A stretch of DNA of 28,605 bases from positions 1-28,605 of the IMG/VR virus record IMGVR_UViG_3300021197_000815; one strand, given 5' to 3'. The translations under genes were made by a program, and so were the position numbers. The DNA is from a virus. A model generated the notes under the pieces. That model was not told the origin of the DNA. It did not search any database and saw only the letters and a list, made by a program, of their open reading frames with translations. Positions 3,320 to 25,458 of the stretch are shown one piece after another (positions within the stretch are counted from its first letter, which is position 1; every line of letters begins with the position of its first letter).

Positions 3320-4399
3320 TTATGCAAGGTTGTACTTAGCAGTAACAATAGCCTCTGGACGCAGAATCTTACGACCGTAGAGGTGCATACCACGTACGAT
3401 GTCAGCAAAGCTGTCAGGGTCACGGTATGTTTCTGTTTTGTTGATCTGCTCAGCAGTAGCGATTGCAGAGTCATGACCCGCAACGATAGCACCGAAGTTA
3501 GTTTCCTGCGAAGCAGTACCTACTGTAGACGCACCAGTGCCTACGCTTGGCAGGTTGTTGGAGACGTATACACGGAAACCGTTCCACTTAGGAATAACGA
3601 GACCGTTACGGAGAGCACCATCGTCACCGAAGTCAGCATTCAGGAAACGGCTGTCTTCGTCAGCAAGGATTTCCATCATAACTGGGTCGATAACAACCCA
3701 ACGACCATCTTTGTCAACGTTCTGTACGTCGAGGAGACGACCCATACGGTTGATCAACATTACTGGTGATACGTATGAGGTTGGGAGTGCTGTGGCACCA
3801 GGCAAACGAGCAGCAACTGGAACCGAAGGTGAAGTAATACCTGTGTGGTCAGTTGTGATGTTGCCGAATGCTTTGGCGTCGAGCTTGTTAACTGCAAGAA
3901 GTTCGTCAGAACCTGCAGCTGAGTCAGCTTTAGTACCGTTCACAGTTGTGTTAACTGTATCAGCGTTTGTGTGCAGAGCAGACTGCGCATAACCTGACAA
4001 GTAACCGAGAACTTCTTGGTCATGCTGGTCAGCCAAGCGGTACGCCGCACGGTTGGTTGCAAGATCCATGAAGTTTACGTGGCTGTGAGCTTCTTCGATA
4101 TCATCAATCTTGAAAGCAAAGTAGTTAGCTTTGTCTACGACGAGCGAGAAGTCATCGTCTTGCAAGTCTTGTGCAGCAATCTGTGTACCACGTGCGTACG
4201 ATGATACTGAGATTTCTGGTTCTTTGATGATTTTAACTGTATCACCCTGTGAAGCGATCTCACCGAAGTAGTCAGAGTTGGTGATGTCGGTACAGATTGA
4301 TTTCTTGCGGAAAGCAAGTTGTACTTTCTTCGAATAGATTACTGAAGAGAAGTTACCGTTTGGGAGGTTAGTATAACCACCTGCTGATGCAAAAGCCAT
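3320..4399 (-). CDS. Major capsid protein
   Basis: A 359-residue protein without signal or membrane segments. The N-terminal segment 'FSSVIYSKKVQLAFRKKSI' followed by 'GEIASQGDTVKIIKEPEI' is the pattern of HK97-fold coat proteins: an N-arm followed by the E-loop region. The C-terminal part contains 'FRVYVSNNLPS', 'IVAGHDSAIATAEQI', 'DIVRGMHLYGRKILRPEAIV', typical of the P-domain and A-domain strands in phage coat proteins. It follows a scaffold gene and precedes a gp4-like adaptor. It has its own strong promoter, a leader of about 250 bases and a terminator, as expected for the most abundant virion protein. The start is supported by AGAAGGATATATACA before the ATG. Confidence 0.88.
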   Translation of the reverse strand: MAFASAGGYTNLPNGNFSSVIYSKKVQLAFRKKSICTDITNSDYFGEIASQGDTVKIIKEPEISVSSYARGTQIAAQDLQDDDFSLVVDKANYFAFKIDDIEEAHSHVNFMDLATNRAAYRLADQHDQEVLGYLSGYAQSALHTNADTVNTTVNGTKADSAAGSDELLAVNKLDAKAFGNITTDHTGITSPSVPVAARLPGATALPTSYVSPVMLINRMGRLLDVQNVDKDGRWVVIDPVMMEILADEDSRFLNADFGDDGALRNGLVIPKWNGFRVYVSNNLPSVGTGASTVGTASQETNFGAIVAGHDSAIATAEQINKTETYRDPDSFADIVRGMHLYGRKILRPEAIVTAKYNLA

Positions 4400-4646
4400 T
4401 GTATATATCCTTCTAGATGTTTGGCTTGATAAAGTAGGACGTAGTGGTGTCCCAGTTAAGAGAACCTAAACAATCGGGATAAGAGGCTGATAGATTTCTA
4501 GGGTGCTTTCGGGGTAGCTTGCCAGCTAGTCCCTCCAGGGCCTGTACTTAATCAGGTAAGTCTTAGAGATTATTAGTGTTCAGTAGTCTACCCCATAAGG
4601 GGCTACTGTATATGTCTACGGGTATCCAAGTAGGGGCCGTTAAACA
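4400..4646 (-). promoter_or_regulatory. Hairpin-rich 5' leader of the capsid mRNA
   Basis: The stretch between the capsid promoter and the capsid start holds no credible gene. Read on the minus strand it contains a hairpin at 4581-4608 (CAGTAG + CCCC paired with GGGG + CTACTG, TTAT loop, small bulge), CCTG/CAGG at 4541-4556, CCCT/AGGG at 4531-4540, and TAGCT-GGCA-AGCTA at 4515-4528. None is followed by a U-run, so these are not terminators. They could stabilise the mRNA, be an RNase III site, or control translation. No known riboswitch class was recognised. Confidence 0.5.
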
Positions 4647-4652
4647 TATACA

Positions 4653-4681
4653 GTTATACCATACTCATTCTTGAGTGTCAA
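4653..4681 (-). promoter_or_regulatory. Sigma70-type promoter for the capsid gene
   Basis: TTGACA at 4681-4676 and TATAAC at 4658-4653 with exactly 17 bases between them, on the minus strand. The predicted start is near 4646, giving a leader of about 250 bases before the capsid ATG. It lies just after the stop codon of the scaffold gene. Confidence 0.8.
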
Positions 4682-4703
4682 GTTTTAATTGAGTATAATG
4701 ATA

Positions 4704-5648
4704 TTAGCGAGCACGGCCAGAGATGTCATAAACAAACTTACCTGAGGCCATTGCTTCTTGGATTTCATCGTAGCGATTCTCAAACTCTTTGTCACTCATC
4801 TTAGAGATAACTGACTCTTTGAGGTAAGAAGCTGCATCGTCTGTCTCGATAGCAGTACGGGTCTTCTTAGCTACTGTCTTAGCGGCATCCTTGGCCTGTG
4901 CCTTCTTAGCGGAAGGTGTAAGACCATTATCAACCTTATAAAGGTCAAGAACACGGATAACACTACCAGCATCGTCTGAGTTCTCATAGAGAGCATCACG
5001 TACCCACTTAGGTTGTTCATCAACCCAGTCATGGAACTCGTCTGCTTCACGGAGGTCATCGAAGTCAGAGTGTGCCTTACGGATCTCCGTCTCAGCACGA
5101 GTACGTGTAGCTTCGTACTTAGCTTCGTCAAGCTCCTTGAACCGTTCGTTAGCCTCAGCAAAACGCTCAGCAGCTTTCTTCTCAGCAATAGTCTCCACAA
5201 TAGCAGCTACGTCTGGGTGTTTGTTTGCCCAAGCTTCAATGTCTTCATCTGACTTAGGAGGACGTACAGCGGTATCGGACTCAGCAGCTTCAAGCTTCTC
5301 TTTCCACTCCTTCTCCTTCTCAGCCATATGTCGACGAAGATCACCATAGCGCTTCTTAAAGGACTTCTCCTCACGGCTAAGCTTTACGCCATCTTCATCT
5401 TCATCTTTATCTTCTGGCTCATCAGCCTCAGGAGCGTCCGCTACAGGCTCTTTAACCTCTTTAGGGGCCTTGGGTACCTCAGCCTCCTCCTTGGCCTCCT
5501 CAGGGGCCTCTACGCCGCTCTGAGACGCCATCAAGGCTGCTAGTTCAGCTTCATCCTTTTCAATACGAGCTTGTTTAGCTGCGTAGTTGCTTCCACGGGA
5601 CATCATAGACTCTTTGATGTGGACGTCCTTAACCATTTCTTTAGCCAT
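4704..5648 (-). CDS. Capsid scaffolding protein (putative)
   Basis: 314 residues, very rich in Glu, Asp, Lys and Ala. Residues ~20-110 are highly acidic with low complexity ('EDKDEDEDGVKLSREEKSF'). Residues ~110-210 are a long predicted coiled coil, and a shorter charged helical C-terminus ends near 'FVYDISGRAR'. This acidic coiled-coil design, the size (P22 gp8 is ~300 residues) and the position immediately before the major capsid gene match phage scaffolds that direct procapsid assembly and leave before DNA packaging. Sequence identity to a named family was not tested. The ATG at 5648 has AAGGAATA upstream. Confidence 0.75.
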   Translation of the reverse strand: MAKEMVKDVHIKESMMSRGSNYAAKQARIEKDEAELAALMASQSGVEAPEEAKEEAEVPKAPKEVKEPVADAPEADEPEDKDEDEDGVKLSREEKSFKKRYGDLRRHMAEKEKEWKEKLEAAESDTAVRPPKSDEDIEAWANKHPDVAAIVETIAEKKAAERFAEANERFKELDEAKYEATRTRAETEIRKAHSDFDDLREADEFHDWVDEQPKWVRDALYENSDDAGSVIRVLDLYKVDNGLTPSAKKAQAKDAAKTVAKKTRTAIETDDAASYLKESVISKMSDKEFENRYDEIQEAMASGKFVYDISGRAR

Positions 5649-11687: not shown

Positions 11688-12173
11688 TCACCACTTAGCT
11701 TTGTTAGCGACAGCTCTACACACTTCAATGAAACGTTCTTGAGAGTATGCTTGTTTCATCATGTTCACCTCTGAGGTTACCCATTGTAGGTTGCCCTCAA
11801 TATATCCGAGGTTACTGTCGATCCTGTCAAGAGATGCGTTGTTGGTTATCTCCATAGCGTCGAGGGGTTCACCGGAGAGAGCGCACTGAAAGTCTTGTTC
11901 AATCAGCAAATCAGCTAAGTAGTCAAAAGATACGCTAAACTCGATACCACGTGTCTCTGCACCTGTCTTGTACTTGTGAGCAAAGGAGCAACGGAGAACA
12001 CCTTTGTAGTAGCCTTTGTGCGAGTTACCGTTAGGGTCTTTGTTAGCACAGGCTTTACATAACTTACCTAGTCTCTGGGACTCACGGGCGTAATTATAAC
12101 GTGCATAAGTCACCTGAGAACCACACTGAGGGCAGTCCTTAGCATACCTACCGTTCTGTAACTTAATCACCAT
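11688..12173 (-). CDS. HNH-type endonuclease with N-terminal zinc finger
   Basis: 161 residues. Two CxxC pairs (C14/C17 and C39/C42) form a probable zinc finger. The C-terminal half has 'CALSGEPLDAMEI' followed by 'SLDRIDSNLGYIEGNLQWV', the motif of free-standing phage HNH nucleases in which the Asp/Asn residues and surrounding His/Cys support metal-dependent nicking. Such genes are usually mobile homing endonucleases inserted between essential phage genes, and this one sits inside the packaging block. It overlaps the upstream gene by 7 bases. Its target could be the neighbouring terminase genes of related phages (inference). Confidence 0.8.
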   Translation of the reverse strand: MVIKLQNGRYAKDCPQCGSQVTYARYNYARESQRLGKLCKACANKDPNGNSHKGYYKGVLRCSFAHKYKTGAETRGIEFSVSFDYLADLLIEQDFQCALSGEPLDAMEITNNASLDRIDSNLGYIEGNLQWVTSEVNMMKQAYSQERFIEVCRAVANKAKW

Positions 12174-12457
12174 TTCTCGCGTGAACTCCAGTAGGCTGCA
12201 GACATCTTACCTTTGGCGATGTTCTTACCGTGACGTGCCTTAAAGGACGCCCGTTTCTTCTTCATCTTATCTGACTCACCTGCTTTAGGTTTACCAGCAG
12301 TCTTAGCCCCTTGCTCACCGAAGCGAATAGTCTTAATCTTATCACCTTCTTTAGCGACGACAACATGGGACTTCTTAGGGTGGTTAGGTGTACGTTTTGG
12401 TTTGTTATAACCTGAGACACCTGCACGTTCTAGGCGTGGGTCTTTCTTAACAGCCAT
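12167..12457 (-). CDS. Small basic conserved phage protein
   Basis: 96 residues, strongly basic (Lys-rich). The central 'EGDKIKTIRFGEQGAKTAG' and the C-terminal 'SFKARHGKNIAKGKMSAAYW' are patterns I recall from a conserved protein of many marine phages, ending with a Trp-containing motif (here 'SSREKW'). Function not known; the basic charge and the terminase neighbourhood suggest nucleic-acid contact, which is inference. The ATG is shared with the stop of the preceding gene (one-base overlap). Confidence 0.7.
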   Translation of the reverse strand: MAVKKDPRLERAGVSGYNKPKRTPNHPKKSHVVVAKEGDKIKTIRFGEQGAKTAGKPKAGESDKMKKKRASFKARHGKNIAKGKMSAAYWSSREKW

Positions 12458-13958: not shown

Positions 13959-14354
13959 CTACCATTTGTCTTCTGATCGTGAGCCTTGTGACTCATTAGC
14001 TTCTGCTGACCTACGTCTGAGTAGCTCCAGTTCTAGCTCTTTCTTTTGAATATCCAGCTCTATCTGTCGTACAGCTAGTCTCTGAGCCTCATCGCACCTG
14101 TTGTAACTAGGCCTTCGCTTCTGAAACTCGATGACGTACTTGAAGCCTACAACGACATCATCGGTCTCTGTGTCCACTTCGCTAAAGAACTCTAAGCGCT
14201 TACCATTGCTGTTGTCTACCGTATGTTGACAGGTAGCCTGGCCGTAGCGTGTAGTAAAACTATCAGCTTTAGCGGTGCCAGAGACGGAGACACACACGGC
14301 TGCTAAGCTTAGTGTTCCCGCCAGACTGCTCACGCTTAACCTTAGTACAGACAT
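13959..14354 (-). CDS. Exported protein with C-terminal helix (unknown)
   Basis: 131 residues from ATG 14354, behind AAAGGTAAATATT; a longer frame upstream lacks a site. It has a signal peptide (hydrophobic 'LAGTLSLAAVCVSVSG', probable cleavage after AKA at ~30). The mature part has two Cys (42, 87), which could form a periplasmic disulphide, a strand-rich middle and a Leu/Glu-rich amphipathic helix ('LAVRQIELDIQKKELELELL') that could pair with another protein. The gene overlaps the upstream exported gene by 86 bases in another frame. An inner-spanin-like role is conceivable, but spanins have an N-terminal anchor, not a cleaved signal. Function unknown. Confidence 0.65.
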   Translation of the reverse strand: MSVLRLSVSSLAGTLSLAAVCVSVSGTAKADSFTTRYGQATCQHTVDNSNGKRLEFFSEVDTETDDVVVGFKYVIEFQKRRPSYNRCDEAQRLAVRQIELDIQKKELELELLRRRSAEANESQGSRSEDKW

Positions 14355-14646
14355 AATATTTACCTTTGTTTCTGACGGTAACTTTAATATCCACGACTTC
14401 ACCTGTGTCTAGTGTTACCTCGTTGTTAATCAGAGAGGACCTCCACTGAGACCTAGTGGGACGTAGTGTATCTTTGTCCAACACCTCAACCTTGTAGGTT
14501 ACAGGGCCCTCGTATAGGTTCTTGAGCCATATGTTGCTCTCACCAAATACGGACACGCTACTCTGGAGGTCCCTTGTGGAAGATTGATGTGAGGCTGCAC
14601 CACCAGCGTAAGCTAGCAGTGCAACCATTGTTATGACCCTAAACAT
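14269..14646 (-). CDS. Exported beta-sandwich protein, chaperone-like (unknown)
   Basis: 125 residues from ATG 14646, overlapping the TGA of the upstream gene (ATG/GTG double start possible). Signal peptide 'VITMVALLAYAGGAASH'. The mature part is strand-rich ('SNIWLKNLYEGPVTYKVEVL' and 'TLDTGEVVDIKVTVRNKG') with Cys100 and Cys119. The order of strands, ending in 'SSRVCLRLW', recalls immunoglobulin-like periplasmic domains such as pilus chaperones, but no diagnostic motif is present, so that is only a resemblance. It is the middle of three consecutive exported genes, implying a shared envelope function. Confidence 0.65.
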   Translation of the reverse strand: MFRVITMVALLAYAGGAASHQSSTRDLQSSVSVFGESNIWLKNLYEGPVTYKVEVLDKDTLRPTRSQWRSSLINNEVTLDTGEVVDIKVTVRNKGKYYVCTKVKREQSGGNTKLSSRVCLRLWHR

Positions 14647-15131
14647 CACTCAAAGCAGGTGACGGTGAAGGCAATGGGATAAGCACCCTCGTCTGCAATC
14701 TCTGTTACAGCTACATCGACAGTAGCTGGGTCAAGTGTCAGTGTGTCGATTGTCAACGCCCCATCAGGCACCAAGGTAAACGTACCTGTCAGGTCACCGT
14801 TGTCTGTGATTGCTGTGGCTCCAAATGTGGAACCAGTGTAGTCAATCGCAGTAATAGCACCAGAGTTACCGTCAAAGACACTGTCGTTAGTGATGAGGAT
14901 AGACCCTAGTGAACGATAAGTGATGTCCATCGTCGCTGGGTTTGTAATACTTACGAACTGTCCGTTAGGTTCATCGTATTCCATAGCACCCGTTAGGGGC
15001 CCCGTAAAGGAACACGACATCGCAAGGTTGGTAGCATTTAGGGTCAGCGACATATCAGGCCCAATAATGCTAGAGGAGGCTGAGGTAACCCCAAAAGCCG
15101 CAATAGATGCAGCAGCTAGTATCTTCTTCAT
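14646..15131 (-). CDS. Exported beta-rich protein, pilin-like composition (unknown)
   Basis: 161 residues from ATG 15131; a second start at 15152 adds seven residues (MKSKGKI). Signal peptide 'MKKILAAASIAAFGVTSASS'. The mature protein is acidic, Thr/Gly/Asp-rich and strand-rich, with two Cys, one near each end ('LAMSCSFTG' and the C-terminal 'FTVTCFE'), as in many secreted beta-sandwich subunits. No membrane anchor after the signal. The start region is tandemly duplicated (see the repeat entry). It lies between a lipoprotein gene and two further exported genes. Possible surface or periplasmic factor blocking superinfection; unproven. Confidence 0.65.
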   Translation of the reverse strand: MKKILAAASIAAFGVTSASSSIIGPDMSLTLNATNLAMSCSFTGPLTGAMEYDEPNGQFVSITNPATMDITYRSLGSILITNDSVFDGNSGAITAIDYTGSTFGATAITDNGDLTGTFTLVPDGALTIDTLTLDPATVDVAVTEIADEGAYPIAFTVTCFE

Positions 15132-15165
15132 GATCTTTCCTTTACTCTTCATGATCTTTCCTTTA
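15124..15165 (-). repeat. Tandem 21-base duplication of a ribosome binding site and start codon
   Basis: Two adjacent 21-base copies (15145-15165 and 15124-15144) differing by one base. Each carries TAAAGGAAAGATCATGAAGA, so both contain a full ribosome binding site and an in-frame ATG. The TAA of the upstream lipoprotein gene lies in the first copy. Confidence 0.9.
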
Positions 15166-15342
15166 TTGCAGACCTACGTCAACTTCTGCTTCTTGATCAC
15201 CTTCAGAGAGGTCACCGTTACCTGTGTCTGCCTGCTGTTCACACTGAGCGAGTAAGCAGATGTTCACAGGGGTGTAGCCTGTACTGTACGAACAAGCTGA
15301 AAGTACAAATAGAGTAGAGAGGAGTAGAGCTAGTTTAGGCAT
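15163..15342 (-). CDS. Small lipoprotein (possible outer-membrane spanin or exclusion factor)
   Basis: 59 residues from ATG 15342, one base after the upstream stop. The N-terminus 'KLALLLSTLFVLSAC' is a textbook lipoprotein signal with lipobox LSAC (lipidated Cys17). The mature part is ~43 residues with two more Cys and a strongly acidic end. Small lipoproteins after a holin gene are often o-spanins (Rz1-like), which fuse the outer membrane in lysis, but this one is not Pro-rich and no adjacent i-spanin is obvious. It could instead belong to the exported cassette downstream. Location between lysis genes and exported genes fits both. Confidence 0.7.
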   Translation of the reverse strand: MPKLALLLSTLFVLSACSYSTGYTPVNICLLAQCEQQADTGNGDLSEGDQEAEVDVGLQ

Positions 15343-15343
15343 A

Positions 15344-15751
15344 TTACTTACCATCCTTCCACTTCTCTATGGCCTTCTCACCACTGCGACCTACGATGTA
15401 ACCACCAACACCTAGTGTTAGAAGGTTCCAGAGCTGGTCTGGTAGCTCAAGGGTGTTCTCCAGTACACTTGGGAATACGATACCCAGTACAGGGAAGAAC
15501 AAGTAGTTCATAGCTATAATAGAGATAGCGACCATCATCAGGAGGGGCCGCCAAGCGGATGTGATCCAGCTCTCTGACTTAGCCTCAGCGAGGATGATCT
15601 CACCACGTATCTTCTCAAGGGAGTCAGTGTGTTCGAGAAGAGCTAGTTTAGTCTCTCTTTCTATCTCAGCTCTCTTATCTGAGTCTGGGATAACCTTCTT
15701 CAGCACATCACCTAGGATCGGTGCAAGAACGGGGATAAGGGCCTGAAGCAT
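15344..15751 (-). CDS. Holin, GTA-type three-TM family
   Basis: 135 residues. A helical charged N-terminal part (to ~60) is followed by 'SWITSAWRPLLMMVAI' and hydrophobic segments at ~68-86, ~84-97 and ~108-122 with 'LGVGGYIVGRSGEKAIEKW'. This 'W..S.WRP.....' plus 'GGY..GRS.EK' pattern is that of the 3TM holin family of gene transfer agents and many alphaproteobacterial phages. It would form the inner-membrane lesion that releases the endolysin. It is separated from the next membrane protein by only a few bases. Confidence 0.85.
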   Translation of the reverse strand: MLQALIPVLAPILGDVLKKVIPDSDKRAEIERETKLALLEHTDSLEKIRGEIILAEAKSESWITSAWRPLLMMVAISIIAMNYLFFPVLGIVFPSVLENTLELPDQLWNLLTLGVGGYIVGRSGEKAIEKWKDGK

Positions 15752-15754
15752 ATT

Positions 15755-16024
15755 CTACTTGTCCTTTCTAGACACCCACATAGTGAAGATCAACATCACA
15801 AGTGAGTTAAAGATGAACCACAACCAGTTGGAGATGTCACGTCCCCACTCATACCCTGAAAGGTACGCTGTGGTCCAACCTGATTGGGCCCAGAGGTATG
15901 TGACGACTGCTAGGGCCATTAAGAAACCTACGAGGCTACGTCTCTGTACAGCAGCAGGTACCAAGGCGATGAGCAACACCGTTGCCCACAGTAGTGTTAT
16001 GAAGTCTACGGTAATTGATGACAT
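15755..16024 (-). CDS. Three-TM membrane protein in lysis cluster
   Basis: 89 residues with hydrophobic segments at about 8-25, 31-47 and 66-84 and an Arg/Lys end ('VSRKDK'). It starts behind AAGGGAAG and overlaps the upstream 49-residue membrane protein by 19 bases. Position between endolysin and holin suggests an antiholin, second holin or lysis-timing protein. No family recognised. Confidence 0.65.
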   Translation of the reverse strand: MSSITVDFITLLWATVLLIALVPAAVQRRSLVGFLMALAVVTYLWAQSGWTTAYLSGYEWGRDISNWLWFIFNSLVMLIFTMWVSRKDK

Positions 16025-16155
16025 TCAACTACTTCCCTTTTTATTGTTATTACCCACGAGCTCTGAGCGGCGAAGTCCACCCAGAACATAAAGAGCGTAG
16101 CGAGTATGAAACCTGCTATAGCTGCAGGTACGTTGTTTCGTAGCTGACCCTTCAC
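16006..16155 (-). CDS. 49-residue single-TM protein with GTG start
   Basis: A short frame starting at GTG 16155, which overlaps the TGA of the upstream gene (GTGA). AAAGGGGGG lies about ten bases upstream. It holds one hydrophobic segment ('AAIAGFILATLFMFWVDFAA') after a short basic N-terminus. Overlaps at both ends fit translational coupling inside the lysis cluster. It may be a holin-type or regulatory micro-protein; no family recognised. Confidence 0.55.
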   Translation of the reverse strand: MKGQLRNNVPAAIAGFILATLFMFWVDFAAQSSWVITIKREVVECHQLP

Positions 16156-16409
16156 AGGACTAGCCCCCCTTTAATCACAAAAGCCATCACAGCGGAGATA
16201 GCCCCACCTATTACGAAGAAAGCAACCTTCTGGTTAAAGGAACCTCTTTGGTTCTCAACTTCTTGTACGGTTCGGATAGTCTGCTCTAGTAGAGCAATGG
16301 TTACGGTGAGGTCAGAAGAGGTATCTCTTAGCTTCTCTAAGAGTACGTAAAGGTCCTCCACCTCTTTCTCTATCCGAGCCATGCGTAGCTGTAGGTCAGA
16401 TTCAGTCAT
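16152..16409 (-). CDS. Coiled-coil, C-terminally anchored lysis-type protein (XhlA-like architecture)
   Basis: 85 residues: a heptad-rich helix from ~5 to ~50 ('MARIEKEVEDLYVLLEKL'), then a hydrophobic C-terminal segment at ~62-80 ('KVAFFVIGGAISAVMAFVI'). This layout is the same as XhlA-type phage proteins that work with holins at the membrane. It lies directly after the endolysin gene. Architecture match only. Confidence 0.6.
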   Translation of the reverse strand: MTESDLQLRMARIEKEVEDLYVLLEKLRDTSSDLTVTIALLEQTIRTVQEVENQRGSFNQKVAFFVIGGAISAVMAFVIKGGLVL

Positions 16410-16477: not shown

Positions 16478-17002
16478 TCAGTGTGTCATGTCTTTGAGGA
16501 AGAGGGCACGTTCTTCTTGACGTCTCTTAGTCAAACCACGTAGTACCTTACCTTTTTGCTTATCCCAGCGGAGGAGTTCGTCAGCTGCTCCTTTATAGTC
16601 TTTCTTATTCAACTTCTTCAACAGAGTTGATCTCTTGAAGTTGGTAGCACCTAGGTTATAGACAAAGGAGGCTAAAGCATCATACTGGTTCTGTGTCAGA
16701 GGTACCTTAACGTGCTTCTTGAGAGCTGCCTCTACCCAAGCCAAATCATGCTTGAGGAGTTCCTCTGCTCCTTTCTCCGTTATGACCATCCCTGGTTTAG
16801 CTGTCTTAGTGTGACCGTACCCGATAGTCCATACATCATCACGTGTAGGTAGGTAGGACCTCAGTCTTAAACCTTCGGACTCCTTGATCAAGTCCACGTT
16901 ACTGATCGACATAGATTGTACATCTGCTTCACCACCAACACTGTAACCTAAGTACTGAGCAGTAGCAACTGTTAGTTGTTGTAGGAAGTTGTTGAAGTTC
17001 AT
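16478..17002 (-). CDS. Endolysin, GH24 lysozyme-type muramidase
   Basis: 174 residues. It breaks the glycan strands of peptidoglycan at the end of infection. 'KESEGLRLRSY' gives the catalytic Glu (E43), and 'VWTIGYGHT' has the conserved Thr59, followed by 'NQYDALASFVYNLGA' typical of phage lysozymes. The N-terminal ~30 residues are weakly hydrophobic with no clear signal or SAR anchor, so release probably needs the holin. The usual Asp nine residues after the Glu is Pro52 here and one residue is inserted; D55/D56 may take the role. The ATG overlaps the upstream stop (ATGA). Confidence 0.88.
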   Translation of the reverse strand: MNFNNFLQQLTVATAQYLGYSVGGEADVQSMSISNVDLIKESEGLRLRSYLPTRDDVWTIGYGHTKTAKPGMVITEKGAEELLKHDLAWVEAALKKHVKVPLTQNQYDALASFVYNLGATNFKRSTLLKKLNKKDYKGAADELLRWDKQKGKVLRGLTKRRQEERALFLKDMTH

Positions 17003-17262: not shown

Positions 17263-17287
17263 CGTACTCTCTCATTAGCTTACCCCA

Positions 17288-17316
17288 GTTATAACATAGG
17301 GTGTTCTTCAAGTCAA
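17288..17316 (-). promoter_or_regulatory. Sigma70-type promoter at the head of the late arm (proximal)
   Basis: TTGACT at 17316-17311 and TATAAC at 17293-17288 with a 17-base spacer, minus strand. The start is ~20 bases before the first late gene. Confidence 0.75.
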
Positions 17317-17378
17317 GCAGAAATACCACCTTAGCTATACTAAGGGCTCTGCTTCTCCTTCAATTTTATTGAATAATT

Positions 17379-17400
17379 CCCCTGAAGTTCCCTTGAGGGG
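17379..17400. other. Hairpin in the late-arm leader
   Basis: CCCCTGAAG-TTCC-CTTGAGGGG: a nine-position stem with one mismatch. It is not followed by a clear U-run on either strand. A second perfect hairpin, CCTTAG-CTATA-CTAAGG, lies at 17329-17345. Both fall between the two late promoters, so they are in the leader of the distal one. Confidence 0.5.
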
Positions 17401-17423
17401 GTGCGACAAAGGAGGTGAAGTAC

Positions 17424-17436
17424 ATACTTAAAGTAT
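17424..17436. repeat. Palindromic operator candidate, copy 1
   Basis: ATACTTAAAGTAT, a perfect six-base dyad around one central base. Other copies are at 17490-17502, 17593-17605 and 24369-24381. Confidence 0.75.
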
Positions 17437-17489
17437 GACTTGGGTTGGACATGTAGCCGCGAGGTCAACCCCTTATGTGTACTTAATGT

Positions 17490-17502
17490 ATACTTTAAGT
17501 AT
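17490..17502. repeat. Palindromic operator candidate, copy 2
   Basis: ATACTTTAAGTAT, the reverse complement of copy 1. A degenerate relative (GTACTTAATGTAT) overlaps it on the left. Confidence 0.75.
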
Positions 17503-17592
17503 CTCTTATGTTCTTCACTTAAGTTCTACTTATCTTCTTCATCTTCTATGTTATATCTTATTAGATGTAGGAGTTTTAGTGTTCTTTAAGAA

Positions 17593-17605
17593 ATACTTTA
17601 AGTAT
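17593..17605. repeat. Palindromic operator candidate, copy 3, abutting a promoter
   Basis: ATACTTTAAGTAT directly follows the -10 (17606-17611) of a perfect leftward promoter, covering the expected transcription start. That is a classic repressor-operator position. Confidence 0.8.
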
Positions 17606-17634
17606 ATTATACCATAAGTGTGTTTGGGTGTCAA
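17606..17634 (-). promoter_or_regulatory. Perfect-consensus sigma70 promoter at the head of the late arm (distal)
   Basis: TTGACA at 17634-17629 and TATAAT at 17611-17606, separated by 17 bases, minus strand. It drives a leader of about 340 bases before the first late gene. A 13-base palindrome sits immediately downstream over the start site. Confidence 0.85.
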
Positions 17635-17662
17635 GCTAAAAGCGACATGCTAGATGAAGATA

Positions 17663-17705
17663 GGGAAGATCTCCCACGAAAGGGTCATTTAGCGGGAAGA
17701 TCTCC
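17663..17705. repeat. Direct repeat GGGAAGATCTCC
   Basis: Two identical 12-base copies at 17663-17674 and 17694-17705, about three helical turns apart (31 bases). Flanking CATTTAGC (from about 17686) and GCTAAAATG form an imperfect inverted repeat around the second copy. Possibly a protein-binding site upstream of the distal late promoter. Confidence 0.6.
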
Positions 17706-17933
17706 TGTGTATTAGCTAAAATGCAGAACATTCTCCTTCACCCTGTTTTCCACCCAGGCCTCAACCTGTAGTTGACCAGGTACTACATAGGGTATACACA
17801 TAGGCTTCGAACCCCTAGTGGGTTAACAAAGTGGTTAACAGACCTAAAATACCCCTCTCTGTCATTGTGGGTATATAATAACGCCACACCCCCCACTGGC
17901 CCCTCTACCCCCTGCATACATATTCCCTTTGTC

Positions 17934-18110
17934 GCATATGAGAATCATTCTTAAGTAGCTATATACATTCCGTTATTGCTATATGAGAACCATTCGCAAC
18001 AAGCATACACATTCAAGAAGCTGAATAGATTGACTGCTCGGTCGGGATTGCCTTCGCCAGAGACAAGAGACATATTCAAGAAATGCTATATGATAATCAT
18101 TCGCAAGTAG
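17934..18110. repeat. Triple Fur-box-like direct repeats
   Basis: Three copies of a ~25-base unit GCTATATGAKAAYCATTCGC at 17934-17958, 17978-18003 and 18084-18110. The cores TGAGAATCATTCTTA (17939), TGAGAACCATTCGCA (17984) and TGATAATCATTCGCA (18091) fit an imperfect 7-1-7 dyad like a Fur box. A companion repeat CAYATTCAAGAA occurs at 18008-18019 and 18071-18082. Confidence 0.7.
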
Positions 18111-18305
18111 AACGGTATTGCTGATGGTTTTCGTAGGGTATACGGGCAGGTTGGAGGTTATATTCACAAACCTGAATACATTCCCATAAATAGAACACAC
18201 CCAGAACAACCTTAAGAACACATAGGGAACGCCCCATAGACCCCGATTTTAGCCTCACTGAGCACCATCTCTGGTTTTGACGATATGCGACCCCCTAGAA
18301 ACTGA

Positions 18306-18354
18306 GTTCCCTATCTGTTCCCTGCCTGTTCTACTTCGTTCCCTTTGGTTGTAT
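18306..18354. repeat. Helically phased GTTCCCT repeats (iteron-like)
   Basis: GTTCCCT begins at 18306, 18317 and 18338, with a degenerate GTTCTAC at 18328, so steps are 11, 11 and 10 bases, i.e. one helical turn. Another GTT follows at 18348. An inverted copy AGGGAAC lies at 18224-18230. An AT-rich tract (TATATATATATTA) follows directly. This could be a replication origin or multi-site operator. Confidence 0.6.
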
Positions 18355-18578
18355 ATATATATTACTACCCGCGCGTTTATCCTTTTATAGGCTGCACCAA
18401 ACCTAAGCGAACCTATTTTCTCACCTGCTAACCTATTGATTTTAAACGATAATCGAAGAAAGTTAGTATTTTATTGCATTTTATTTGATTTATTTTAGAT
18501 GGAAACGAATCAGCTAACCCATTGTTTTCATTACATATTCTTTGGACCGACCTGAATTTATCCAATGTTTTCAAGGGG

Positions 18579-18607
18579 TTGACATTATCTCGGTCTGCCC
18601 TCATATT
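18579..18607 (+). promoter_or_regulatory. Rightward sigma70-type promoter for the early arm
   Basis: TTGACA at 18579-18584, a 17-base spacer, and CATATT at 18602-18607 (4 of 6 to consensus). The predicted start near 18614 gives a long leader of ~350 bases before the first early gene. Confidence 0.65.
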
Positions 18608-18613
18608 CAATTC

Positions 18614-18970
18614 ATCGGCAAGACAGCAAGACAAGCCAGACAGTCGAAGCGGGGAGGCGAACCCCTAGGATCAAAATCAAACGCCCTAGGTTTTAGGCTT
18701 GCGTGAGGCCGACGCCCCGATTTGGACGGGTGAGCAGCGCAAGTCTGGTTTAAACTGGGTAGCAGTCGAGTAATTGTGTGGCCACTAAGGTGCGCCACGT
18801 GAGCAGTGAAGGAGGTTGCTAGGGTCCTGAGGCTATAGAGCGGACCTCACTTATACTTAGACTGTTGCAGCAAGTGGGTGAGGGTAGTGAAGGCTTAGGG
18901 TTCCCATTTTATAAACCAGTGCATCCATGACGGGTGCATTGCTTGTGAAATGGAATAAGGAACAAATACC
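18614..18970 (+). other. GC-rich structured leader upstream of the first early gene
   Basis: No gene seen. The composition switches from AT-rich to GC-rich here. Pairings visible: CCTAGG repeated at 18664 and 18685; GGTCC (18823-18827) with GGACC (18842-18846), which competes with TGAGG (18828-18832) with CCTCA (18845-18849); and a 9-position stem AGTGCATCC/GGGTGCATT at 18918-18940 just upstream of the ribosome binding site. It may be a regulatory leader or a separate small RNA. Confidence 0.45.
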
Positions 18971-23590: not shown

Positions 23591-23866
23591 ATGAAACTAC
23601 TCATTGCAACAACAATCGCAGCACTGGCCTCTTTCAGTGTAAACGCAGCTACTATTGGTGTCCAAGCTATTGATGATAATGGAGGACCTATCGGTAAACA
23701 TGAGGTCATTGACCTGAAAGGACACACCTGTAGGGATGCTGTTAAGTTTATCCGAGACAGTATGCCCAACTCTATATGGATTGACCTAGGGAACCATAAG
23801 TACCTATCTAGTGAAGACGGTTCACACGCACTTATGATTTGTATTGATGACGGAAAGGAAGTTTAA
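23591..23866 (+). CDS. Small exported protein
   Basis: 91 residues from ATG 23591 behind AAAAGGAGACTAAC. Signal peptide 'LLIATTIAALASFSVNAA', cleaved near residue 20. The mature ~70 residues are mixed alpha/beta with two Cys (47 and 84), a likely disulphide. The only exported protein of the early arm seen here; a periplasmic role such as superinfection exclusion is plausible but unproven. Confidence 0.7.
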   Translation: MKLLIATTIAALASFSVNAATIGVQAIDDNGGPIGKHEVIDLKGHTCRDAVKFIRDSMPNSIWIDLGNHKYLSSEDGSHALMICIDDGKEV

Positions 23867-24628: not shown

Positions 24629-24799
24629 ATGACATTCGATCCTACAACAATCGCAATTATAGCACTAGCTGGTGTAGCTATCTATCAACATTTTCAGATT
24701 GCTGACCTTAACGGAGCCGTTGATGAGATCATCGAAGGTCACAATCGCTTTGTAGATGCAGTGGTAGCTGCCGCAGACAGTATGGAAGAGGAAGACTAA
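24629..24799 (+). CDS. 56-residue small membrane-anchored protein
   Basis: ATG 24629 behind AAAGGAGACTACT. One N-terminal hydrophobic segment ('TIAIIALAGVAIYQHF') followed by a short acidic helix ('GAVDEIIEGHNRF', 'AAADSMEEED'). Its TAA shares the A of the thyX ATG, so it is translated just ahead of thyX. Unknown function. Confidence 0.65.
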   Translation: MTFDPTTIAIIALAGVAIYQHFQIADLNGAVDEIIEGHNRFVDAVVAAADSMEEED

Positions 24800-25458
24800 T
24801 GACCCAGATTAAAGCTGAGCTACTTGCAGTAACCCAACCTTGGGGGAAACAATCTTTCACTACACCAGAAGGGCTTGTTGCTTATTGCGCAAGGGTGAGT
24901 AACCCGAAGAACCAGGATAACCCTGATTATGCTGGTCTTCTTCAGTACTGCGTTAGAAACAAGCACTGGTCTGTGTTTGAAATGTCTAACGCTGTTGTGG
25001 AGATCGAAGCGCCACGGGACATAACCCGCCAGCTTCTTCGTCACCGTAGCTTTCTGTTTCAGGAATTTAGTCAAAGATATTCCGACGAGATTGAATTCAC
25101 TGAACGAGATTTTCGTAGACAGGACGACAAGAATCGCCAGAACAGTATTGATGACCTAACTGAACCTCAACAGGATTCAGCATCCGTGATGTCGTCGATA
25201 GTTAGAAGCACTGCCGAAGACTACTACAAAGAACTGATTAAAATGAAGGTGGCAAAAGAGTGCGCACGGGTGATTCTTCCTGAAGGCATGACTATGTCCC
25301 GTCTGTATGTAAACGGTACATTTAGAAGCTGGTTACACTACATTGATGTCAGGGACGATGTCGGTGTCACACAATGGGAACATGTACTTCTTGCACGAGC
25401 AGTACGTAAGGTACTGGAACCCGTAATGCCAACTATGCTAGGAACACCTGATGTTTAA
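24799..25458 (+). CDS. thyX: Flavin-dependent thymidylate synthase ThyX
   Basis: 219 residues. ThyX makes dTMP from dUMP with methylene-tetrahydrofolate, FAD and NADPH; phages use it to feed DNA replication. The signature RHR(x7)S is present as 'RHRSFLFQEFSQRY' (R81-R83, S91, R93), and the C-terminal part has 'ECARVILPEGMTMSRLYVNG' followed by 'TFRSWLHYIDVR', the second conserved region with substrate-binding Arg and Asn. Length is normal for the family. It overlaps both neighbours and is the clearest metabolic gene in the window. Confidence 0.95.
   Translation: MTQIKAELLAVTQPWGKQSFTTPEGLVAYCARVSNPKNQDNPDYAGLLQYCVRNKHWSVFEMSNAVVEIEAPRDITRQLLRHRSFLFQEFSQRYSDEIEFTERDFRRQDDKNRQNSIDDLTEPQQDSASVMSSIVRSTAEDYYKELIKMKVAKECARVILPEGMTMSRLYVNGTFRSWLHYIDVRDDVGVTQWEHVLLARAVRKVLEPVMPTMLGTPDV

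Follow-up and report, generated by a model that had tools for sequence, protein, structure and literature searches.

The genes for p161, p125 and p131 lie side by side in a viral contig and encode secreted proteins, and the cassette they form is almost certainly a conserved envelope module. Sequence comparison supports well that the three are a real module of genes acting together, because their order is invariant, their overlaps are conserved and they appear to have been co-transferred between unrelated phages; the original prediction, which had four genes including an adjacent lipoprotein gene acting together, is supported on the same grounds. It is quite possible, though short of probable, that the cassette is an usher-free phage chaperone–subunit system, in which a PapD-like chaperone of one domain joins with a pilin-like partner in a donor-strand complex, in the periplasm or at the outer membrane, and that phages widely carry this system, and exchange it horizontally, as a means of changing the host surface. 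Hundreds of marine phages that are otherwise unrelated carry the cassette without annotation, all of its genes being labelled 'hypothetical', and no description of it was found in the literature, of which our coverage was incomplete. It thus appears that a means by which many phages act on the host surface has been overlooked, yet the strict gene order, strong constraint and recognisable predicted fold of the cassette point to a shared envelope function.

Organisation and spread of the cassette

The window, by which we mean the whole stretch of DNA analysed, is a viral contig of 28.6 kb with podovirus-like portal, capsid and tail genes. The four ORFs proposed earlier as consecutive genes with export signals were all confirmed, with their coordinates, on the minus strand (Table 1). 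The lipoprotein has a lipobox, and p161, p125 and p131 carry Sec signal peptides by motif; the cleavage motif of p125 is kept in relatives, before HQSST, and so is that of p131, an A-x-A before D. As had been noted, the three non-lipoproteins have exactly two mature cysteines each (C40 and C159 in p161, C100 and C119 in p125, C42 and C87 in p131). Upstream of the cassette lie genes for a lysozyme, cc85, tm89 and a GTA-type holin; downstream there is an HNH gene, followed by the terminase genes. The predicted gene overlaps were also found: p161 and p125 are coupled by TGATG (a 1-nt overlap), and p131 starts inside the p125 gene, with an out-of-frame overlap of 86 nt that is the same in all three close relatives.

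Table 1. Position and description of the cassette genes, their neighbours in the window and the additional secreted genes of contig L146
Feature	Position	Strand	Description	Basis
Lipoprotein	15163..15342	-	59 aa, lipobox LSAC; looser fourth cassette member	ORF
p161	14646..15131	-	161 aa; secreted, acidic, two-Cys; proposed pilin-like subunit	
p125	14269..14646	-	125 aa; secreted, basic, single Ig-like domain; proposed chaperone	AF2 model
p131	13959..14354	-	131 aa; secreted, two-Cys; probable C-terminal coiled coil	
Holin	15344..15751	-	GTA-type, 3-TM; neighbour, non-member	PF11351 4e-17, phrog_3427 2.6e-31
tm89	15755..16024	-	Small membrane protein; cassette companion	38-57% identity in L005, L006, L007
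cc85	16152..16409	-	Coiled coil + C-terminal TM; cassette companion	29-55% identity
Endolysin	16478..17002	-	Lysozyme; neighbour	PF00959 5.5e-48
L146 secreted proteins	4162-4710 and 4640-5512		Upstream of cassette in L146	182-185 aa with C-terminal TM; 290 aa

It is clear from a crude scan of the 49 genes of the window that export signals cluster in the cassette beyond chance: the sole lipoprotein signal falls in this stretch, and so do three of the four clearest cleavable signals. The fourth belongs to another secreted protein (23591-23866, plus strand; 91 aa, signal MKLLIATTIAALASFSVNA), encoded in the rightward arm, away from the cassette. Compared with the nearest relative, the three genes are under purifying selection, with dN/dS of about 0.12, 0.12 and 0.31.

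Direct relatives were found in three IMG/VR contigs (3300021197_000641, 3300021197_000832 and 3300035070_001610). The order p161–p125–p131 is the same in all four window-type records (the window and the three relatives, L005, L006 and L007), and p161 is 57-83% identical across the three other phages. When whole records were compared, the capsid protein of the window was only about 23% identical to those found in the relatives, and neither its portal nor its terminase had a match in them; common to all are cc85 and tm89, and two relatives share the lysozyme. Little else is shared, and the simplest reading of the sequences is that the cassette, together with cc85 and tm89, moved between phage backbones.

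The lipoprotein is a looser companion than the other three proteins, and its position varies. It precedes p161 in the window and in one relative (L006, where it is 73 aa long), it follows p131 in Vibrio phages, and it was not found beside the cassette in other groups.

Through a weak match of the p131 profile (E 0.005) in a metagenomic bin we came upon L108, a phage contig in which three genes of the cassette kind stand in a row. The window and L108-type proteins are homologous by hhalign for both p125 (probability 87%, E 4e-6) and p131 (92%, E 5e-7). The comparison of window p161 with the L108-type pilin-like protein was not significant, and a broader profile of the upstream secreted proteins of other groups gave only a weak match (probability 11%, E 0.0027); p161 may be linked to the first genes of the Vibrio and L108-type cassettes mainly by position, size, signal and cysteine placement. 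With one p125 subtype 28 viral loci were found, and a pattern scan with its alignment gave 368 confirmed stretches. Among 109 L108-type loci, which comprise 82 distinct p125 genes, the upstream sequence was long enough in 97, and all of these had the first gene; the downstream sequence was long enough in 104, and all of these had p131. Distant relatives of p125 and p131, preceded by a comparable secreted protein with two cysteines, are found in over 100 marine virus contigs. A further match, L107, was due to chance and was dropped.

L108-type phages add two secreted genes upstream, of 182-185 aa and 290 aa, neither of which has a Pfam match; the larger protein had no match among GenBank phages either. 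Five copies of the 290-aa gene were seen on separate contigs of one Rhodobacteraceae bin, which suggests that phage contigs were binned with their host. On the 3' side of the cassette, the L108-type loci that were read contain genes for a coiled-coil TM protein, usually an EF-hand TM protein, holin-like proteins and an endolysin, GH19-like by eye in L146; the GTA-type holin family of the window also follows the cassette in these phages.

The cassette is also present in cultured Vibrio phages. Searching with an L108-type p131 gave matches in 188 phage records (best E 4e-5), of which 184 are of Vibrio phages; with p125 as encoded by pVp-1 there were 179, all of Vibrio phages. Their genomes measure 57-61, 79, 83-84 and 111-129 kb and belong to several lineages. 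In addition, when window p125 was compared with viral models, the matches included a protein of 100 aa from Vibrio phage Ceto; Ceto gp146, which takes the place of p125 in the cassette of that phage, is annotated with this length. The order in the Vibrio examples examined is fibre-like gene, pilin-like gene, p125, p131 and small lipoprotein; the last was found after p131 in six of the six phages checked. The first genes of the Vibrio and L108-type cassettes are 24-30% identical and keep both cysteines. Seven Vibrio cassettes directly follow fibre-like genes and, since these genes are homologous across lineages, the fibre-like gene and the cassette travel together in these phages. Holin and endolysin genes come after the cassette in T5-like Vibrio phages, while the cassette of pVco-14 and K251 has the fibre-like gene on one side and head-tail genes on the other. 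Because cultured Vibrio phage isolates with laboratory hosts exist, the system is immediately testable.

A tblastn search of GenBank phages and plasmids gave no match to the window proteins. No bacterial version of the cassette emerged when 346-398 genomes of Rhodobacteraceae, Alphaproteobacteria and Pseudomonadota were searched with profiles; the one productive match was a phage contig in a metagenomic bin. Roseophages CRP-9, CRP-13 and CRP-603 share terminase-region DNA with the window; p125 is absent from them, and no cassette was seen by eye in their lysis region. The view that phage late operons rarely carry several exported proteins was wrong, as the cassette is a common marine phage module, and the possibility that the gene set would be missing from every other phage is dismissed by its wide recurrence.

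Predicted fold of p125 and comparison with pilus chaperones

An AF2 model of p125 (pLDDT 72) predicts an Ig-like sandwich; the original prediction called two of the proteins strand-rich, and for p125 the model agrees. The best solved matches (Foldseek, VIA) were the N-domains of pilus chaperones, SafB (Z 10.7), FimC (10.5), Caf1M (10.3) and PapD (10.1), with 92-104 residues of the predicted structure matched at 2.2-2.8 A. The match spans p125 residues of about 23-125 and ends at PapD residue 116, the end of the N-domain. With Z of about 9, MSP and ASH domains are not far below, so the fold alone is no proof of a chaperone.

The two cysteines of p125 are invariant and are placed by the model on strands F and G. 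An F–G disulfide is characteristic of FGL chaperones (PMC4133393), in which the pair sits at the same position, whereas the short F–G loop of p125 is as in FGS chaperones (PMC4133393). The N-terminal anchoring arginine of the chaperones (R8 of PapD, R20 of Caf1M) has no invariant counterpart, residue 25 being R or Y in window-type proteins. The second, C-terminal chaperone domain is absent, mature p125 having about 106 aa. Pfam scans of p125 and its relatives gave no significant match to PapD_N, the PF00345 search of the four records was likewise negative, and hhalign of p125 against Rhodobacteraceae PapD_N gave a probability of 1 or less (E 0.05-0.09). An usher (PF00577) was absent from the four records, which are possibly fragments, and was detected in the E. 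coli control. A host usher would be unreliable: of the 61 Rhodobacteraceae genomes sampled, only 5 had PapD_N and 6 had SCPU.

p125 thus resembles the chaperones of chaperone–usher systems (PapD, FimC, Caf1M and SafB; PF00345) in its predicted Ig-like domain, its export and its place beside a secreted, subunit-like two-Cys protein. It differs from them in being phage-borne, in lacking a C-terminal domain, an usher and significant sequence similarity, and in its unconserved anchoring arginine and short F–G loop. Judged by the model, p125 may work like a pilus chaperone, by which we claim no membership of the family.

Mature p161 has a pI of about 4 and a single K/R, while p125 is basic in all four window-type members (pI 8.6-9.7), and this charge complementarity supports a chaperone–subunit pair. 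It is non-uniform in the L108-type, where the pI of the pilin-like proteins ranges from 4.4 to 8.6. p161 itself had no credible Pfam, PHROG or PDB match, and PDB profile searches were negative. In the L108-type pilin-like proteins the first mature cysteine lies about 12 residues from the N-terminus; so short a segment leaves little room for a donor extension, and ordinary pilus polymerisation is therefore doubtful.

We also noticed that mature p125 begins with His in every aligned window-type and L108-type member (HQSST, HEMTP), despite identities of 20-28%; Vibrio members differ (LTL). A copper protein or LPMO-like protein was considered and rejected, as the L006 protein has a single His and hence no histidine brace.

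Possible function of the cassette

We propose that the cassette is a mobile phage module directed to the envelope, which would be expressed with the late genes, a timing we infer. With its PapD-like fold, p125 would serve as a periplasmic chaperone made of one domain, taking up the pilin-like p161 and keeping it stable, plausibly by means of the last strand of p125, which has alternating hydrophobic residues and one half of the F–G cysteine pair. At the outer membrane the complex would be completed, or held in place, by p131 and, where there is one, the lipoprotein. Most likely the complex would then alter the cell surface or block the receptor of the phage as lysis approaches and while it proceeds, with the outcome that progeny would not re-adsorb to the dying cell and rivals would not infect it. 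That p125 chaperones the protein encoded upstream seems on balance probable; the full chain, up to an altered receptor or surface, ranks first among the readings but is held only tentatively. Superinfection exclusion is plausible, because the Vibrio cassette travels with a tail-fibre-like gene, linked to adsorption, and a small lipoprotein, and this linkage favours action at the surface. The small phage lipoproteins T5 Llp and Rtp45 block or shut a receptor from the periplasmic side (PMC9586334, PMC12685063), and in Vibrio cassettes, too, a small lipoprotein lies a few genes from a fibre-like gene; this likeness is one of arrangement, and the cassette differs in its three further secreted proteins and, in the window, in having no adjacent fibre gene. 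Counted against the surface reading is that the neighbours in the window, L005 and the L108-type are lysis genes and not fibres. Since lysis genes, fibres and head-tail genes alternate among the groups, no single neighbourhood fixes the function.

The same lysis neighbourhood, which recurs in L006, L007 and T5-like Vibrio phages, and the co-travel of cc85 and tm89 would suit a secreted complex that works alongside holin, endolysin and spanin, either weakening the outer membrane or controlling when lysis occurs. We rank this lysis accessory second and think it rather unlikely, as the pVco-14 and K251 cassettes lie outside the lysis cluster and the relatives already have separate spanins and endolysins. 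The spanins of the relatives (phrog_1804 in L005, phrog_1026 with an overlapping lipoprotein in L006 and L007, and the PseT.2-like gp072 in pVp-1) also speak against a divergent two-component spanin, with p131 as its inner-membrane and the lipoprotein as its outer-membrane part; an ordinary spanin is excluded for the relatives. Known spanins are also late genes near lysis genes, with overlapping frames and a lipoprotein (PMC6139136), the C-terminal part of p131 is probably a coiled coil, in Vibrio phages its gene overlaps that of the lipoprotein, and the 59-aa lipoprotein of the window, in which no other spanin was recognised, weakly matches phrog_456 (E 0.054). The cassette differs from spanins, however, in the predicted Ig-like p125 and in cleavable signals, the A-x-A motif leaving p131 no lasting anchor, and no lipoprotein was found next to the cassette of L146; we consider this reading extremely improbable.

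Pilin-like subunits might instead be assembled into a fibre on the infected cell, by a host usher or none, for aggregation or capture of a new host. The chaperone-like predicted fold of p125 fits such a fibre, and phage curli modules are known to move between marine phage families (PMC9599517, PMC7029224), but the missing usher, the rarity of host systems and the short pre-Cys segment make it improbable. Of the earlier suggestion of a pilus- or curli-like surface modification, the pilus part gains from the predicted likeness of p125 to chaperone N-domains, and the curli part finds no support, as p161 has no visible repeats and no cassette protein matched csg. Phage curli, found in pelagiphages and phage Melnitz, have been proposed to act in lysis, against superinfection or in aggregation (PMC9599517, PMC7029224, PMC9004378); like this type VIII secretion system, the cassette is a multi-gene secreted module moving between unrelated marine phages, but it has no CsgG/CsgF-like gene among its proteins and its subunits lack curli repeats. 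The constant upstream fibre-like gene of Vibrio phages, and the tail-fibre-like genes just upstream of the cassette in L006 and L007, would agree with proteins that decorate or mature the neighbouring tail fibre. We regard such a virion role as very unlikely, since cleavable Sec signals export the proteins from the cytoplasm, where tailed-phage virions are assembled, and the cassette has no fibre next to it in the window, in L005 or in L108-type phages. A PADLOC search gave nothing.

Other features of the window

Between the leftward and rightward arms of the window there is a stretch of about 1.7 kb without a convincing gene (17263-18970), possibly a regulatory region. A 96-aa gene on the minus strand (12167-12457; KPKRTPNHPKKSHVVVAKEG) showed an unusual conservation at the DNA level, its sequence being ~67-79% identical to genes of unrelated roseophages and cyanophages. 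In addition, the plus strand encodes a flavin-dependent thymidylate synthase, ThyX (24799-25458), whose nearest relatives, in genome contigs, are only ~50% identical and come mostly from Chlorobiaceae, with some from Prochlorococcus and marine MAG contigs.
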